43,616 nucleotides of DNA. Origin: Lactobacillus taiwanensis DSM 21401. Lineage in GTDB: Bacteria; Bacillota; Bacilli; Lactobacillales; Lactobacillaceae. Below the pieces are notes generated by a model that made no database searches, was not told the DNA's origin, and saw only the letters and a list, made by a program, of their open reading frames with translations. This document shows, one piece after another, positions 36,761-43,616 of the stretch. The position numbers were made by a program, and so were the translations under genes. Location: positions 1 through 43,616 of the forward strand of contig NZ_AYZG01000042.1 of the NCBI RefSeq assembly GCF_001436695.1, given 5' to 3'. Numbering within the stretch: the stretch's first letter is position 1; each line of letters starts with the position of its first letter.

Positions 36761-37669
36761 GAAACAAATTATTTTCTAGTACTACAAACCGATTTCGGCT
36801 TAAAAGATGAGGCCGTTAGTGCCATGCACAGAGTTGCCCACATGGTTGTCCCTCACATCGTCGTTTCAGATTTAACTCATGAGATTCCACCTTATGATAT
36901 TTGGTCTGCCTCTTACCGCCTTTACCAAACTATTAAGTATTGGCCAAAAGGTACAAGTTTTGTTTCAGTTGTTGACCCAGGTGTTGGTTCAGAAATTTTA
37001 TTAAAAATAGCTGGCATCAAATGGAAACAAGTATCGTTTATCGTTAAGTTCATTATTGTTTTTGCGATTATCAATATTATTGCAGTCTTCATCTTTCAGC
37101 CAACTTATGGTGAAACGCTGTATCACTCACGAACAGTCCTAATTAATGCAGGTTACTTCACTTTGACTGCTCAAGAATTGTTTTATTTATTTAACGTTAG
37201 TCTGAAATACATCTGTTCTATTCCCCTAGTGCTGCTCTTTTTATTAACGACTAATCCTAGTCAATTCGCAGCTAGTTTAAATAAAATTGGCGTCAGCTAT
37301 AAGGTCTCTTATGCCGTTTCTTTAGCCTTGCGCTATATCCCTAACATTCAAGAAATTTATTGGTCAATTTCTGCTGCCCAGCAAGCGCGTGGTAATGAAT
37401 TATCTAAAAAAGCATCCCTGGGCAAAAGAATTCATGGAACACTAAACATCGTTACTCCACTTATCTTTTCAAGTCTTGACCGAATTGACACAATTAGTAC
37501 TGCTATGCAACTTAGACGTTTTGGCTCAAAGAAAAAACGTACCTGGTATGTTGCAGAAAGTTTTAGCTTAGCAGACTATTTAGTCACGAGCTCAGCCTTT
37601 ATTCTAGTTTTAGTCGTTATTTTGCTCTTTAAAGTTAATTCTGGACGCTTCTATAATCCCTTTGTATAA
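36761..37669 (+). pseudogene. deletion chimera: SAM hydroxide adenosyltransferase N-terminus fused to EcfT
   Basis: The frame from 36761 to 37669 is open throughout. The first part (36776-36991, LVLQTDFGLKDEAVSAM, then SDLTHEIPPYDIW and FVSVVDPGVGS) is the N-terminus of a DUF62 SAM hydroxide adenosyltransferase. From about 36992 it changes abruptly to the transmembrane component of an ECF transporter (EcfT): about four membrane helices, the coupling segment AAQQARGNELSKK and the second basic motif AMQLRRFG, but without the first ~40-50 residues. A good ribosome binding site (AAAGGAGG, 36749-36756) precedes the first part, but no ATG, GTG or TTG lies in frame near it; the first ATG is 36824. 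The missing middle would be the rest of DUF62 and probably the ECF S-component and ATPase genes. Confidence 0.82.
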
Positions 37670-38518: not shown

Positions 38519-38866
38519 TTATTCAATTTTTCCAATAATCTCATTCTCATAAGTTTTATCGTGAACCGATTCAATATTTTCATCAAAATTAAATTCGGCC
38601 GTATGCTTATTTTTAAGCTTAACTTTATGAGTAGCACTCATCTTGAACCATTCATATTCTGAATCAATATGTCCCAAATCTATTAACTGATTCTTTAAAT
38701 CTTGGAGATCATCTACAATTAGCTTAGCTGTTGGCCCGAGCATCAACAAAATCAATCTATCTTCTGCATTTTCTCGAATCGTTTGTTCTATTTCGCTAAT
38801 CTTTTGGTACGCATTCTTCGATGGAGCAATAATTCTTTTAATTGATTTAGTATTAGCAAATAGATC
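38519..38866 (-). repeat. near-identical 3' segment shared by the two glycosyltransferase genes
   Basis: The last ~348 bases match 40544-40891 in the paralogous gene almost base for base; over the last 116 residues there are only 11 amino acid differences, whereas the GT8 halves differ at most positions. Such a sharp change in identity suggests recent gene conversion or recombination between the copies. Confidence 0.85.
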
Positions 38867-40543
38867 GTTTCCTAACCCTGAACGTGTAAAATTTCCTTCA
38901 ACAATTAAGATGTCTTTATCTTTCCAAATTTGTTTGAGTTTATCAAACCAGTGTGCACTTTTAGATTTATCAATTCGATCAATGTATGGTCTTGAAATAA
39001 AAGTATTACTATAAATATTTTCTGTTTTTTCTATTTCTTTTAGAAGATGCTGATTGTTAAAAAAGAAATTAGTTTCGTAAAAATCTTTTGTGTATTGACC
39101 ATAATTCTTTAAACTTTCAAATACATCTGGAAGAGCTACATCGTATTTATTATTACCTCCAGCAAAAAGTATCTGTTTTAATTGTCTCGACAAATTTTCA
39201 TCATATGCTTGATAGGTAATCCCCTTTCCATTAATCAAGCTCAGTTCTCCATCACCAAAGCGAATAATGGACTTTTTCTCATTAATAAGTCGATCAAGCG
39301 CTTCATCCATACCTCTGACATGAATATTAAAAAGCTGAGGAACGAATTGTTGAGTGATACTCTTTCCTACTTTCTGAATTCTATTAGCCATCTCATTAAT
39401 TTGATCGTCTTCAAATACTTGATAGTGCTCATAATCTAACTTTTTAGATTGTGATGAACTAAAAGATAAAATAGGAACTTTGCGATGTACAATCCGATCG
39501 AGCACCATTTTATTTTTATTACCATAATTAATATCAAGATAAACTGTACACTTATTAATAAGTTCAATTTGTTTTTTTGCAGTAACACTTGGATATATAG
39601 TTACATTGTCATATTGAGATAAATGACTTAATAAAAAGGCAACTGGAGTAAACGCAGCAATACTAAAGTGAATATTAGGTAATTTTTTTACTAGCTCTTC
39701 TAAATTTTGAACTTCAGCGACATTCGTAAATGTATAGGCCTCTCCATCAAAAGTCCTATCATGCTCGTTATTTAGTTCAAAGTTTCTGAAAATAATTTTT
39801 GTCCACTCTAGATTGTGATAATCCCACCATTTTTCTCTTAATTCAGTTGTATTAGTAACGTTAAATGGCTTATCTCGCTCAGTAAAATGAATAATAGCAG
39901 GCTCTTTTATATGATCAAAAAATGAATAAAAACTATCTTTATCATTCCAGTAACTTTTGCGTTCATAACCAATTTGATAATTATATTTTGGATTTAGCTT
40001 TCCATAGTTCTGCGCAAAACCTTCATTCATCATAACCTGAGTATTACTTAGATTATATCTCTTCCCTAAATCCAACAATTGATTTCCAATATTGTTGTTA
40101 TACCAAAATCTATTATTAATTAATAAGACTCCTGAATTAAATTGACCAGGATTAAAATAGTCGACTACAGTATAGAGAGGCCTATCTTCAATATTAGTTT
40201 CAAAAAGTTGATCTAAATTTTGGTCTACAATTACATCACTATCTAGATAAAGAACCTTATATTCTTTAATTAATTCGGGAATCAAAAATTTACCATACAC
40301 CATCTTAGAAATTCGATTTTCAGGATTTGGCATATCCTTAAAACGGCTAAGATCAATTTTTAAATCGATAACTTCTGAGTTCAACTCTTTTAAATATCGG
40401 TTAATATTCATAAACCACTCATGCGGAATATCTGGATTAATAATATAGGTTTTGATATCTTGATTACGCGCATAGATAGACTTTAAAGTTGTCTCTGCTT
40501 TATCAATCCAGTCGTAATCTACACTTAATGCAATTATCTTCAT
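38519..40543 (-). CDS. three-module glycosyltransferase (GT8 + GT-B-like half + GT-D), copy 2
   Basis: 674 residues, cytoplasmic. Module 1 (1-255) is a GT8-type GT-A fold: DSD metal motif (101-103, in VLYLDSDVIV), QFNSGVLLINN (135-144) and IIHFTERDKPF (217-227, the C-terminal HxxxxKP motif). Module 2 (about 265-395) looks like the C-terminal Rossmann half of Gtf-type enzymes of the adhesin glycosylation pathway (FSIAAFTPVAFLL, VYLDINYG, VPILSFSSSQS). Module 3 (about 405-674) is a GT-D (formerly DUF1792) domain with IRFGDGELSLI (427-437), LLMLGPTAKLIV and LGHIDSEYEWF. GT-D was first described in dGT1, which glycosylates a streptococcal serine-rich adhesin. The ATG follows the stop of the upstream paralogue directly (TAAATG). 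The likely target is the adhesin upstream; sugars unknown. Confidence 0.88.
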   Translation of the reverse strand: MKIIALSVDYDWIDKAETTLKSIYARNQDIKTYIINPDIPHEWFMNINRYLKELNSEVIDLKIDLSRFKDMPNPENRISKMVYGKFLIPELIKEYKVLYLDSDVIVDQNLDQLFETNIEDRPLYTVVDYFNPGQFNSGVLLINNRFWYNNNIGNQLLDLGKRYNLSNTQVMMNEGFAQNYGKLNPKYNYQIGYERKSYWNDKDSFYSFFDHIKEPAIIHFTERDKPFNVTNTTELREKWWDYHNLEWTKIIFRNFELNNEHDRTFDGEAYTFTNVAEVQNLEELVKKLPNIHFSIAAFTPVAFLLSHLSQYDNVTIYPSVTAKKQIELINKCTVYLDINYGNKNKMVLDRIVHRKVPILSFSSSQSKKLDYEHYQVFEDDQINEMANRIQKVGKSITQQFVPQLFNIHVRGMDEALDRLINEKKSIIRFGDGELSLINGKGITYQAYDENLSRQLKQILFAGGNNKYDVALPDVFESLKNYGQYTKDFYETNFFFNNQHLLKEIEKTENIYSNTFISRPYIDRIDKSKSAHWFDKLKQIWKDKDILIVEGNFTRSGLGNDLFANTKSIKRIIAPSKNAYQKISEIEQTIRENAEDRLILLMLGPTAKLIVDDLQDLKNQLIDLGHIDSEYEWFKMSATHKVKLKNKHTAEFNFDENIESVHDKTYENEIIGKIE

Positions 40544-42571
40544 TTATTCAACTTCTCCAATAATCTCATCCTCATAAGTTTGATCATGGACCGACCCAAT
40601 ATTTTCATCAAAATTAAATTCTGCAGTATGCTTATTTTCAAGCTTAACTTTATGAGTAGCTCCCATCTTGAACCATTCGTATTCTGAATCAATATGACCT
40701 AAATCAATGATTTGATTCTCTAAATCTTGCAAATCATCTACAATTACTTTAGCTGTTGGCCCGAGCATCAACAAAATCAATCTATCTTCTGCATTTTCTC
40801 GAATCATTTGTTCTATTTCACTAATCTTTTGGTACGCATTCTTTGATGGAGCAATAATTCTTTTAATTGATTTAGTATTAGCGAATAAATCATTTCCCAC
40901 TCCCGAACGCGTTAGTGCTCCCTCTACTATTAGCAGATTACGACCACTCCAAAGTTGTTTTAATTTATCAAAGTATGCTGCACTTTTACTTTTATCAAAC
41001 AAATCAATGTATGGTCTTGAAATAAAAGTTGAACCATACCAATTACCAGTCTGTCCAATTTCATTTAAGAAACTTTCATTATTTGGAAAGAAAGATGTCT
41101 TATAAAAGTATCGAGTAAAATCTTGATAACGTTCTAGTTTGGTAAATACATCTGGTAGACAAACCAAGGTATTATTAAATTGCCCCCGCAAAATAATATC
41201 TTTTAGTCGATTAGCAAGTTCTGAATCATAAGTTTGATAGGGAATTGAACCTCCTCTAATTAAATCAAATTCACCATCTCCAAAGCGAATCACAGATTTA
41301 TTGTCTCGCAAAATCAAGTCTAATGATTCGTCCATATCTTTTACTCTAATATTATATTTTGGAGCATTAGTTTTGACCGTCTCTTTAATCGCTTCTGCCA
41401 TTTCATCAATTTGATTATCACGAAAGACATGATAATTATCATAATCCAAATTTTGAGACTGAGTTTGATCGAAGGAAAAGATTGGAATATTTTTCTTCAT
41501 AATTCTTTCAATTATTTCATCAGCTTTAGGACCATAATTAATATCTAAATAAATATCTGCTTCATTTATTTCTTTATCCAAAGTTTTTCCTACAATAGTT
41601 GGGAAAAGTCTCACATTATCATATTGTGTTAATTTCAATAAAAGAAAAGCCATGGGGGTATAGGCTGCTATGTTAAATCTTATATTTGGTAATTTTTTTA
41701 TCAACTGTTCAATATTCTGTACCTCCGCCATACGAGTAAGCAAAAATGCCTCTCCATCAAAAGATGGATCTTTAATTTTACTCTTATTAAAACTACTATA
41801 TTTAGAAATAATTTCTGACCATTCTAGTCTTCTATAATGCCACCATTTGTTTCGTAAACTAACTGTTGATACTAAGTTAAATGGTTTATCTTCAGTAATA
41901 AAGTGGATTATTTTTGGTTTTTTAACTTTATCAAGAAATTGTGTAGTTTTTTGCAAATTTCCCCAAAAAGCTGCTTTTTCAAAACCAATTTGGTAATTAT
42001 AAGATAGATCTAATTCTTCAATTTTATCTTTAAATACTTCATTGATAACAGTTTGATCACCATTTCGAAGATTAGTATCTTTTGCTTTCTCTAAAAGTCT
42101 AGAAACTATGTTACTTTTCTTCCACTTTTTATTATTAATCAATAACACTCCCGAATTAAATTCTGCAGGAACTTGATAGTCACGCACACCACAAACCCAT
42201 TTATTTTCTAAATCAATATTAAATAATTCGTCTAAATTGGCATTCACAACTATATCACAATCTAAATATAGTACTTTATCTTCTTTAATTAATTCAGGAA
42301 TTAGTATTCTCGCAAAGGCAATATTTTTAATTCCTTTAAAAGAAGAATTAACGTCATTTAAATATGCCTGATCAATTTTTTTATCTACAATTTGTGACCC
42401 TATTTGACTGAGATATTGATTCAAATTAGTGAACCATTCGTGTGGAATATCAGGATTGATAACATAGATTTTTACTTTTTGATTATGATAAATAATTGAT
42501 TTAATTGTTGTTTCAATTTTATCTAAGAATCCATAATCACCATTTAATACTATCGTTTTCAAACTTATCAC
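40544..42571 (-). CDS. three-module glycosyltransferase (GT8 + GT-B-like half + GT-D), copy 1
   Basis: 675 residues if read from the GTG at 42571. Alignment with the downstream copy (MKIIALSVDYDW) suggests the real start is the TTG at 42562, which then begins (M)KTIVLNGDYGF; GAGTG lies about 7 bases before it. Module 1 (1-260): DCD metal motif (104-106 in VLYLDCDIVV), EFNSGVLLINN, IIHFITEDKPF. Module 2 (about 275-400): FNIAAYTPMAFLL, IYLDINYG, IPIFSFDQTQS. Module 3 (about 410-675): VIRFGDGEFDLI, LLMLGPTAKVIV, LGHIDSEYEWF. Same layout as copy 2, with a divergent N-terminal half that implies a different donor or acceptor. It is the first gene after the adhesin on the same strand. Confidence 0.88.
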   Translation of the reverse strand: MISLKTIVLNGDYGFLDKIETTIKSIIYHNQKVKIYVINPDIPHEWFTNLNQYLSQIGSQIVDKKIDQAYLNDVNSSFKGIKNIAFARILIPELIKEDKVLYLDCDIVVNANLDELFNIDLENKWVCGVRDYQVPAEFNSGVLLINNKKWKKSNIVSRLLEKAKDTNLRNGDQTVINEVFKDKIEELDLSYNYQIGFEKAAFWGNLQKTTQFLDKVKKPKIIHFITEDKPFNLVSTVSLRNKWWHYRRLEWSEIISKYSSFNKSKIKDPSFDGEAFLLTRMAEVQNIEQLIKKLPNIRFNIAAYTPMAFLLLKLTQYDNVRLFPTIVGKTLDKEINEADIYLDINYGPKADEIIERIMKKNIPIFSFDQTQSQNLDYDNYHVFRDNQIDEMAEAIKETVKTNAPKYNIRVKDMDESLDLILRDNKSVIRFGDGEFDLIRGGSIPYQTYDSELANRLKDIILRGQFNNTLVCLPDVFTKLERYQDFTRYFYKTSFFPNNESFLNEIGQTGNWYGSTFISRPYIDLFDKSKSAAYFDKLKQLWSGRNLLIVEGALTRSGVGNDLFANTKSIKRIIAPSKNAYQKISEIEQMIRENAEDRLILLMLGPTAKVIVDDLQDLENQIIDLGHIDSEYEWFKMGATHKVKLENKHTAEFNFDENIGSVHDQTYEDEIIGEVE

Positions 42572-42978
42572 TCATTTCTATTAATATTTAAACATCTAAC
42601 TTTCACTAATCGCATAATATATTATCTACTAAAAGCATATTATATAACACTTATATTCTATTTTCTTATAATCAGCTAATTCATTCAAAATAAGTTTCAA
42701 CATGTAAAAGAAAATAAATCAATAGCTAATCTATACCTACGTAACTTCTCATTAAAGTTATAGTTTTTCATTTCTTTATCAATTAAGAGAGAGGATTAGC
42801 ATGGTTATCCTATTTTTACATTTATCTCCGGAACTATGACTTGGTACAATTCACTATTTGATTTAGTTAAATTTCTATGCGTAAACTCAGAAGTCTCTTC
42901 TCTCACACATCGCATTACCACTATCGTTAACGATATCTGCATTTCAACAGACTAGATGTAAGTCTCCAAACACATCAA
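42572..42978. other. intergenic region between adhesin and glycosyltransferases
   Basis: AT-rich, no convincing gene. It should hold the promoter of the glycosyltransferase pair (TATAAC/TATAAT-like boxes near 42615-42660 on the minus strand). A 39-codon plus-strand frame (42836-42955, starting MTWYNSLFDLVKFLC) lacks a good ribosome binding site and a recognisable family; a 12-codon frame starts at 42801 behind GAGAGAGG. These look like remnants rather than genes. Confidence 0.5.
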
Positions 42979-43020
42979 CAAAGCCTCGAGTTTCCAAAAA
43001 AGGAAGTCGAGGCTTTATTT
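42979..43020 (-). terminator. terminator after the serine-rich adhesin
   Basis: A 10-bp stem (AAAGCCTCGA / TCGAGGCTTT) extended by TTCC/GGAA around a short A-rich loop, 18 bases after the adhesin stop. The T run on the minus strand is short, so some read-through into the glycosyltransferase genes is possible. Confidence 0.75.
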
Positions 43021-43037
43021 ATTATCTTTAAGATTTA

Positions 43038-43616
43038 TTAATCTTTATCTTTACGTTTCTTACGTCTGAAGCCAAGCAATCCACCTAAAGCAGTAATCAT
43101 TAATCCTAATAAATTAGAACTTGATTCTGCTCCTGTTTGAGGCAATTTACCTCTACGGTGATGTCTCTTAACCGTCTTATCTACAGATTCAGCATTTTCA
43201 TGTTGAGACTTAAGTGTATTAGTAGAAATTGTAGATTTAGCACCACTATTGTTTGGCGTTACTTTAGAACCATTATTGTTAGTACTATTTGTTGAAGTCA
43301 TCGTACTTGTTGAGCTAGATTGACTCTCACTCATCGATGATGAGTTGCTTAAGCTTTCGCTCATACTTACTGAGTTACTTAAACTTTCACTCATGCTTAC
43401 TGAGTTGCTCAAGCTATCACTCATGCTTACTGAGTTGCTTAAGCTTTCACTCATGCTTACTGAGTTAGATAGGCTTTCACTCATGCTTACTGAGTTAGAT
43501 AAGCTTTCGCTCATGCTTACTGAGTTGCTTAAGCTTTCACTCATACTTACTGAGTTACTCAAGCTCTCACTCATACTTACTGAGTTGCTTAAGCTTTCAC
43601 TCATGCTTACTGAGTT
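43038..43616 (-). CDS. serine-rich repeat surface adhesin, LPQTG-anchored (C-terminal part)
   Basis: C-terminal end of a large surface protein that continues past the right edge. The visible part consists of SMSESLSNSV-type decapeptide repeats, a Ser/Thr/Asn-rich spacer, a basic stretch (KRHHRRGK), and a sortase signal: LPQTG (43145-43131), hydrophobic helix (NLLGLMITALGGLLGF) and a positively charged tail (RRKKRKDKD). Sortase A would attach it to peptidoglycan. Proteins of this type are exported by the accessory SecA2/SecY2 system after O-glycosylation in the cytoplasm, and their genes usually lie beside glycosyltransferases, as here. The N-terminal signal and ligand-binding domains are outside the window. 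Confidence 0.93.
   Translation of the reverse strand, partial: NSVSMSESLSNSVSMSESLSNSVSMSESLSNSVSMSESLSNSVSMSESLSNSVSMSESLSNSVSMSDSLSNSVSMSESLSNSVSMSESLSNSSSMSESQSSSTSTMTSTNSTNNNGSKVTPNNSGAKSTISTNTLKSQHENAESVDKTVKRHHRRGKLPQTGAESSSNLLGLMITALGGLLGFRRKKRKDKD
43335..43616 (-). repeat. 30-bp tandem repeats encoding SMSESLSNSV
   Basis: At least nine 30-base units in frame, each coding ten residues (MSESLSNSVS, with MSDSLSNSVS and MSESLSNSSS variants), running into the right edge. Synonymous differences between units (TCA/AGC, CTT/CTC/TTA-type) show they are not all recent copies. The array can change length by slippage and is a likely assembly problem. Confidence 0.95.

Follow-up and report, generated by a model that had tools for sequence, protein, structure and literature searches.

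The stretch analysed here (hereafter the window) comprises 43,616 nucleotides of Lactobacillus taiwanensis DSM 21401, constituting contig C14 of its assembly (NZ_AYZG01000042.1), and encodes close to its right end two tandem tri-modular glycosyltransferases, P1 and P2, next to the 3′ end of a gene for a serine-rich repeat protein (SRRP) adhesin, which we term SRRP2 (Table 1). The open reading frames (ORFs) of P1 and P2 follow each other without a gap on the same strand, and the SRRP2 end lies 466 bp upstream of P1; its ORF is cut short by the window edge, where the contig itself ends. An earlier note, made from these letters alone, had described two adjacent genes each combining a GT8 domain, a GT-B-like half and a GT-D domain, directly downstream of a serine-rich LPQTG adhesin with SMSESLSNSV repeats. 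The ORFs, the Pfam matches and a partial match to TIGR02919 bear out this description, as does the presence of the repeats, and the tandem paralogy is likewise supported.

Table 1. Features of the tandem glycosyltransferase locus, in positions of the window
Feature	Position	Strand	Basis or remark
SRRP2 3′ end, LPQTG, largely SMSESLSNSV repeats	43038..43616	-	ORF list, repeat check
P1 (GT8 + add-on domain + GT-D, 675 aa)	40544..42571	-	ORF list, Pfam, NCBIfam, fold comparison
P1 GT8 module, aa 5-235	41867..42559	-	DXD and DQ motifs intact
P1 GT8 DQ motif, aa 172-173	42053..42058	-	aligned with LgtC 188-189
P1 add-on domain, aa 246-405	41357..41836	-	GtfB-like Rossmann half without E-x7-E motif
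P1 GT-D (DUF1792) module, aa 406-675	40547..41356	-	RFGDGE motif present
P1 copy of gene-conversion-like tract (about codons 563-675)	40547..40885	-	nucleotide identity
P2 (tri-modular glycosyltransferase, P1 paralogue, 674 aa)	38519..40543	-	abuts P1
P2 GT8 module, aa 1-237	39833..40543	-	DXD kept; DQ to TQ, one-residue deletion
P2 TQ at GT8 DQ motif position	40037..40042	-	alignment
P2 add-on domain, aa 241-400	39344..39823	-	match to GtfB C-terminal part
P2 GT-D module, aa 405-674	38522..39331	-	Pfam, fold comparison
P2 copy of gene-conversion-like tract	38522..38860	-	nucleotide identity

Both proteins show the same architecture in domain searches, blastp and fold comparison: a unit of GT8 plus a middle module, known as the add-on domain, is fused to the N-terminus of GT-D. 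Pfam recovers the GT8 and GT-D domains with E-values of 1.4e-37 and 1e-83 in P1 and 1.3e-24 and 2.5e-79 in P2, and the C-terminal 266 residues score 379.8 and 397.3 bits against the NCBIfam SP_1767-family model (TIGR03728; curated cut-off 290.75). The GT-D match ends at residue 651-652 of 674-675 with no later domain detected by Pfam, so a C-terminal GT-A of the dGT1 type is not encountered. In both proteins the middle part resembles the C-terminal portion of GtfB, as modelled by TIGR02919 (3.5e-28 and 1.8e-23, partial matches far below the cut-off of that model), is 31-32% identical to the GtfB of the same genome and also matches PDB 5e9t/5e9u by fold. In fold comparison, GT8 and the add-on domain superpose as one unit on GlyE.

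The earlier note had counted three potential sugar-transfer modules in each chain, an assembly line in which the middle one would be a third active glycosyltransferase half. In favour of such a role, the module is predicted to fold as a Rossmann-type domain with kinship to GT-B proteins. Against it, two halves are required to make up a full GT-B site, and neither the R...K stretch nor the two glutamates of the E-x7-E motif, seen in the four GtfA rows of the alignment, occur in the rows of P1, P2, locus L017, the streptococcal relatives and GtfB. The module instead aligns with the GtfB half and the second domain of GlyE, and GtfB has been described as a chaperone that interacts with the acceptor (excerpt of PMC6973325). 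We accordingly regard a third catalytic site as very improbable. As read from its motifs, each protein combines two domains of catalytic type with a third in which no donor site can be recognised.

The same order, a GT8-add-on unit N-terminal to a C-terminal GT-D, is that of SP_1767/pneumococcal GlyD, and NCBI names the lactobacillar relatives SP_1767 family glycosyltransferases. The protein of strain TIGR4 goes by the name GlyD, and its activities are described in reviews. Among the homologues compared here, GlyD-type proteins of Streptococcus pneumoniae, S. mitis, S. pseudopneumoniae, S. suis and S. sanguinis are 1070-1080 aa long and carry two GT8-add-on units where checked, whereas each window protein has one and the lactobacillar form can occur as a tandem pair. 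In blastp, two S. pneumoniae entries (1077 and 1072 aa) show the order GT8, add-on, GT8, add-on, GT-D. By simple patterns, all 54 long proteins among the best 120 of 1638 homologues contain two LxLDxD-type motifs and 49 of them two DQ-type motifs; across 132 long streptococcal-type relatives, two DXD motifs occur in 124 and two DQ motifs in 118, and the two S. pneumoniae entries miss the strict pattern in their first GT8 and in GT-D. Because the long streptococcal relatives carry the GT8-add-on unit twice, followed by GT-D, the arrangement in the window represents a shorter form of a known architecture. The lineage-specific novelty that the earlier note had suggested does not hold: the arrangement recurs in several Lactobacillaceae and, in the longer version, in streptococci including S. 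pneumoniae. It is, judged on sequence comparison, already known in kind, with the lactobacillar form as its one-unit variant. No description of the lactobacillar form was found in the literature searched, which is not proof of its absence in print.

Other fusions of these domains differ from P1 and P2. GlyE of S. pneumoniae TIGR4 (PDB 5gvv) lacks GT-D, and GtfB, the glycosylation chaperone of the accessory Sec system, shares its C-terminal part with the middle module, has an N-terminal part absent from P1 and P2 and is itself not fused to glycosyltransferases. In dGT1 of S. parasanguinis (DUF1792, PDB 4pfx) the partner is a C-terminal GT-A rather than an N-terminal GT8-add-on unit (excerpt of PMC5207161). 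L. reuteri 100-23 likewise has several DUF1792 fusions in one SecA2/Y2 cluster, GtfD, GtfE and GtfF, one of them possibly split by a transposase gene, but these are described as GT4 + DUF1792 (excerpt of PMC6291802).

GT-D was found in 14 of the 75 Lactobacillus genomes searched, that of the window included. Counting as tri-modular-sized those open frames of 664-694 aa, six genomes have two such genes (G000, G024, G059, G060, G068, G070), four have one (G004, G021, G026, G034) and four have shorter frames only (G010, G023, G061, G069). Several of the loci compared are contigs of genomes counted here and are not independent of them (L010=G070, L011=G059, L013=G068, L015=G004, L016=G023, L017=G026); the comparison of modules between loci left out seven short overlapping ones (L001-L007). 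Among the best 120 of 1638 homologues, relatives of about 660-690 aa include entries named from L. reuteri, L. johnsonii, L. taiwanensis, L. gasseri, L. caviae, L. agrestimuris and Weissella confusa. In G034 (L073, 14747-17214) and G021 (L075, 9702-12169) two GlyE-like GT8-add-on genes (405 and 414 aa) without GT-D stand beside the tri-modular one. L. selangorensis (L036, 3825-14445) encodes five closely spaced GT-D fusions of 507-614 aa, with an N-terminal part unlike GT8 or the add-on domain in blastp.

The accessory glycosylation and export genes, for which the earlier note had proposed to inspect the flanks, are present in the same genome but away from P1 and P2: contig C39 carries, one after another, secY2, asp1, asp2, asp3, secA2, gtfA and gtfB, and then the N-terminal part of a different adhesin, SRRP1. 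The N-terminus of SRRP2 was located on contig C43 (L077) by comparison with L010, and its repeats also fill contig C25. The SRRP of L010 matches C43 at 96% and the 3′ end in the window at 95%, versus only 32-55% for C39, and joining the window adhesin to the SRRP of C39 was therefore rejected. Since the L010 adhesin fits C43 and the window rather than C39, the genome has two adhesins, SRRP1 by gtfAB and SRRP2 by P1/P2; from the L010 comparison we infer a single SRRP2 gene spanning C43, the repeats and the end in the window, parts that the assembly leaves unjoined. In relatives the association can be closer: accessory Sec/gtfAB genes, an SRRP and an enzyme gene form one cluster in L012, L014 and G034, where G034 has the whole system in it, and G021 has enzymes, SRRPs and gtfB together in the stretch read. 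In L012 and L014 the enzyme genes directly follow gtfB and precede an SRRP, which supports the link to SRRP glycosylation drawn in the earlier note. SP_1767 sits in the psrP locus (excerpt of PMC5526788), and the repeat SLSNSVSMSE has been described in SRRPs of L. johnsonii and L. reuteri (excerpt of PMC6973325).

We consider it likely that P1 and P2 belong to the SP_1767/GlyD kind of accessory glycosyltransferase, act in the cytosol and extend SRRP O-glycans, with GT-D and GT8 active and the add-on domain holding the acceptor. The modules, folds, motifs, loci, phylogeny and selection are observed here; the step order, sugars, clients and acceptor role that follow are proposed from them. GtfA and GtfB would first place N-acetylglucosamine on serines of the repeats, and Gtf3/GtfC, encoded near the gtfAB locus in relatives, would add the second sugar. 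By analogy, the GT-D module of P1/P2 may then add the third, glucose or galactose, as in the glycans of Fap1 and PsrP (excerpt of PMC6291802). The GT8 module would add a further hexose in a step that differs between P1 and P2, while the GtfB-like domain might hold the acceptor and pass it between the active sites. The nearest client would be SRRP2, with SRRP1 beside gtfAB as a possible second one.

Several observations weigh against this proposal. The predicted structure models reach a pTM (predicted template modelling score) of only 0.61 and 0.53, and P2 superposes on GlyE with a root-mean-square deviation of 13.1, so that the arrangement of the modules is uncertain. The sugars are not readable from homology, because the pneumococcal enzyme has been reported to show relaxed specificity. 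In the single-contig relatives G024 and G060, gtfB lies near 0.40 Mb, the two enzyme genes around 1.54-1.57 Mb; with the SRRP2/enzyme locus so far from gtfAB, synteny does not fix the identity of the client. The ORFs beside the pair in G024 were not recognised as an SRRP by comparison. Gtf3, encoded some 8-19 kb past gtfB in G060 and G024 and with a match in nine of the 11 genomes searched, has none in the L. taiwanensis assembly or in G023. Loss of Gtf3 from this strain was nevertheless rejected, because C39 breaks inside SRRP1 and C3 starts about 0.5 kb short of the gtf3 site of the sister genome G070, and because, of 23 hits of the L010 SRRP in the L. taiwanensis genome, only that in the window showed a repeat-plus-anchor end. 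The missing Gtf3 is probably an assembly gap.

The distance from gtfAB in G024 and G060 and the unrecognised SRRP in G024 would also suit enzymes that serve another surface polymer, an exopolysaccharide or wall teichoic acid, with the SRRP as a chance neighbour. This seems highly improbable to us, as the mapped lactobacillar enzyme loci adjoin an SRRP or gtfB, save G024 and L015 (the latter with an upstream flank below 1 kb); L017 has a serine-rich LPTTG adhesin two genes off, and in G034 and G021 it is other glycosyltransferase genes that intervene. Moreover, the middle domain is common to P1/P2 and GtfB, and L016/G023, in which SRRP2, gtfB and Gtf3 are all unmatched, keeps only a GT-D scar. 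In that genome, L. johnsonii ATCC 33200 (L016, 10061-10852), SRRP2 and both enzymes have given way to a 263-aa GT-D remnant between the same flanking genes, 90-92% identical to copy 1 versus 70-72% to copy 2. At the SRRP2 position of G024 (L069, 8886-11506) there are two shorter ORFs (433 and 462 aa) whose ends lack LPXTG; the second starts like the ORF beside the L013 SRRP, and SRRP2 may be broken there.

P1 and P2 have diverged unevenly. Protein identity between them is 88% across the second half of GT-D but 54% across its first half, 49% for the add-on domain and 47% for GT8; at the nucleotide level it is 0.92 over codons 563-655 and 0.60-0.62 in the other modules. The same tract recurs in L010, L011, G024 and G060 (0.86-0.93). 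Since copies 1 and 2 still separate in a tree of the tract (0.995; other supports 0.14 to 1.0), the exchange seems for the most part to predate these species, though not firmly so, and ongoing concerted evolution of GT-D was set aside in favour of a mostly ancestral conversion. From the homogenised tract, P1 and P2 probably share one GT-D specificity.

The tract could also mean that P2 is a redundant copy, held similar to P1 by continuing conversion and heading for loss, and broken tri-modular copies do exist in L011/G060, L013 and L014. Such a fate appears very unlikely for P2: the tract tree separates the copies, even if inner supports drop to 0.14, the GT8 and add-on halves retain only 47-49% identity, and the orthologues are under purifying selection. 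The broken third gene of L011 (845-2624) and G060 (L071, 8684-10463) consists of a 140-aa GT8 piece and a 394-aa add-on/GT-D piece and separates the SRRP from the intact pair. A remnant of a third enzyme in the 466-bp gap of the window was considered and rejected, as the three gene-strand frames are rich in stops (no protein-level search of the gap was made); in blastn the last ~120 bp of the gap correspond to the region immediately preceding P1 in G060/L011, and a further hit of 52-80 bp falls close to where the broken gene ends.

The GT8 modules differ at the active site. The metal motif is kept in both, as LDCD in P1 and LDSD in P2, and P2 also retains the FNSG stretch, the Gln and the H...KP stretch. 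P1 has GDQ, its DQ aligning with Asp188-Gln189 of LgtC in a register fixed by the Q189E row of 1ss9; in P2 this is TQ, with one residue deleted. The Asp of this motif is needed for catalysis in glycogenin and LgtC. The earlier note had considered that one of the glycosyltransferase domains might lack a donor site: the P2 GT8 does lack this motif residue, but its DXD is still present. The motif alignment held 75 rows (63 proteins of 640-700 aa from the best 120 of 1638 homologues, the two window proteins and ten locus proteins). A GT8 tree of its 60 distinct GT8 sequences (DQ in 36, TQ in 18, other states in six) plus eight rows from four of the 54 long proteins, built by a quick method and with the DQ columns themselves included, places the 18 TQ rows on a single branch (support 100) that needs one change. 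Where a pair was read, TQ marks the second copy in G000, G024, G060, L010, L011 and L014 (the first copy being split in L014), whereas both intact copies of L013 have DQ. The ratio of nonsynonymous to synonymous substitution rates (dN/dS; Nei-Gojobori counts, three non-independent orthologue pairs among the L. taiwanensis genome, G024 and G060, with L011 not compared) is 0.05-0.09 for the P2 GT8, the lowest of the three P2 modules in each comparison, against 0.10-0.21 for the other P2 modules and 0.14-0.29 for the P1 GT8. Given this low ratio, the P2 GT8 is not decaying, yet its active-site motif is altered; a module conserved but altered in this manner probably uses a different donor or linkage.

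The strongest competitor, less probable than not but to be taken seriously, is that the P2 GT8 is catalytically dead and retained as a structural or acceptor-binding part, leaving P2 to add a single sugar via GT-D. The Asp missing from the 18 distinct rows of the P2 GT8 clade is the residue aligned with LgtC 188, next to Gln189, none of the 132 long streptococcal-type relatives shows the TQ variant by simple pattern, and the DQ motif has changed separately in P0028, P0032, P0059, P0060, P0069 and L012. The very low dN/dS and the otherwise complete set of motifs argue against a dead module, though not decisively, as purifying selection would also fit a structural role. Seven tri-modular relatives (P0032, P0041, P0049, P0051, P0059, P0060, P0069) have GT8 motifs changed in other ways in the alignment, six of them with Asn for the His of the H...KP stretch and several with DQ or NSG altered, which suggests that GT8 has changed repeatedly while the GT-D motif stays.

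Carrying our preferred reading of P1 and P2 as SRRP glycan-extending enzymes further, we tentatively offer the possibility, itself rather doubtful, that the P2 clade has a neofunctionalised GT8, which lost the motif Asp once and then remained under the strongest constraint in the protein, and that the terminal part of its GT-D was overwritten by, or along with, that of the neighbour. The pair would then combine a shared GT-D step with two different GT8 steps, at a satellite locus that holds a second SRRP and is served by a distant gtfAB. The literature searched yielded no mention of the conserved motif change, of the conversion-like tract or of the satellite SRRP2 locus.

A scan for promoters and terminators gave nothing usable (20 promoter-like sites versus 31.1 expected, one terminator-like versus 1.6 expected). 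Elsewhere in the window, the ORF at 36824-37669 fuses an N-terminal part (aa 1-57) of an S-adenosylmethionine (SAM) hydroxide adenosyltransferase to part of a CbiQ transporter; in L011 and G034 the two genes are separate, with a 573-aa ABC-ATPase-like gene between them, and the fusion is likely a deletion fusion or an assembly error.

L. johnsonii accessory Sec genes are reported to be rodent-associated and SRRPs with their export genes to matter for gut colonisation by L. reuteri (excerpt of PMC12188725), and streptococcal SRRP glycosylation mutants are impaired in biofilm formation (excerpts of PMC5207161 and PMC7661464). Sequence does not reveal the donor specificity of the enzymes; a natural pair with much of one catalytic module in common but a difference at one GT8 motif residue offers a clean test of the role of that residue. 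The satellite SRRP locus allows one to ask if glycan extension is adhesin-specific within a cell and, if the neofunctionalised P2 GT8 and the satellite locus are real, the glycans on the two adhesins of one cell could differ.
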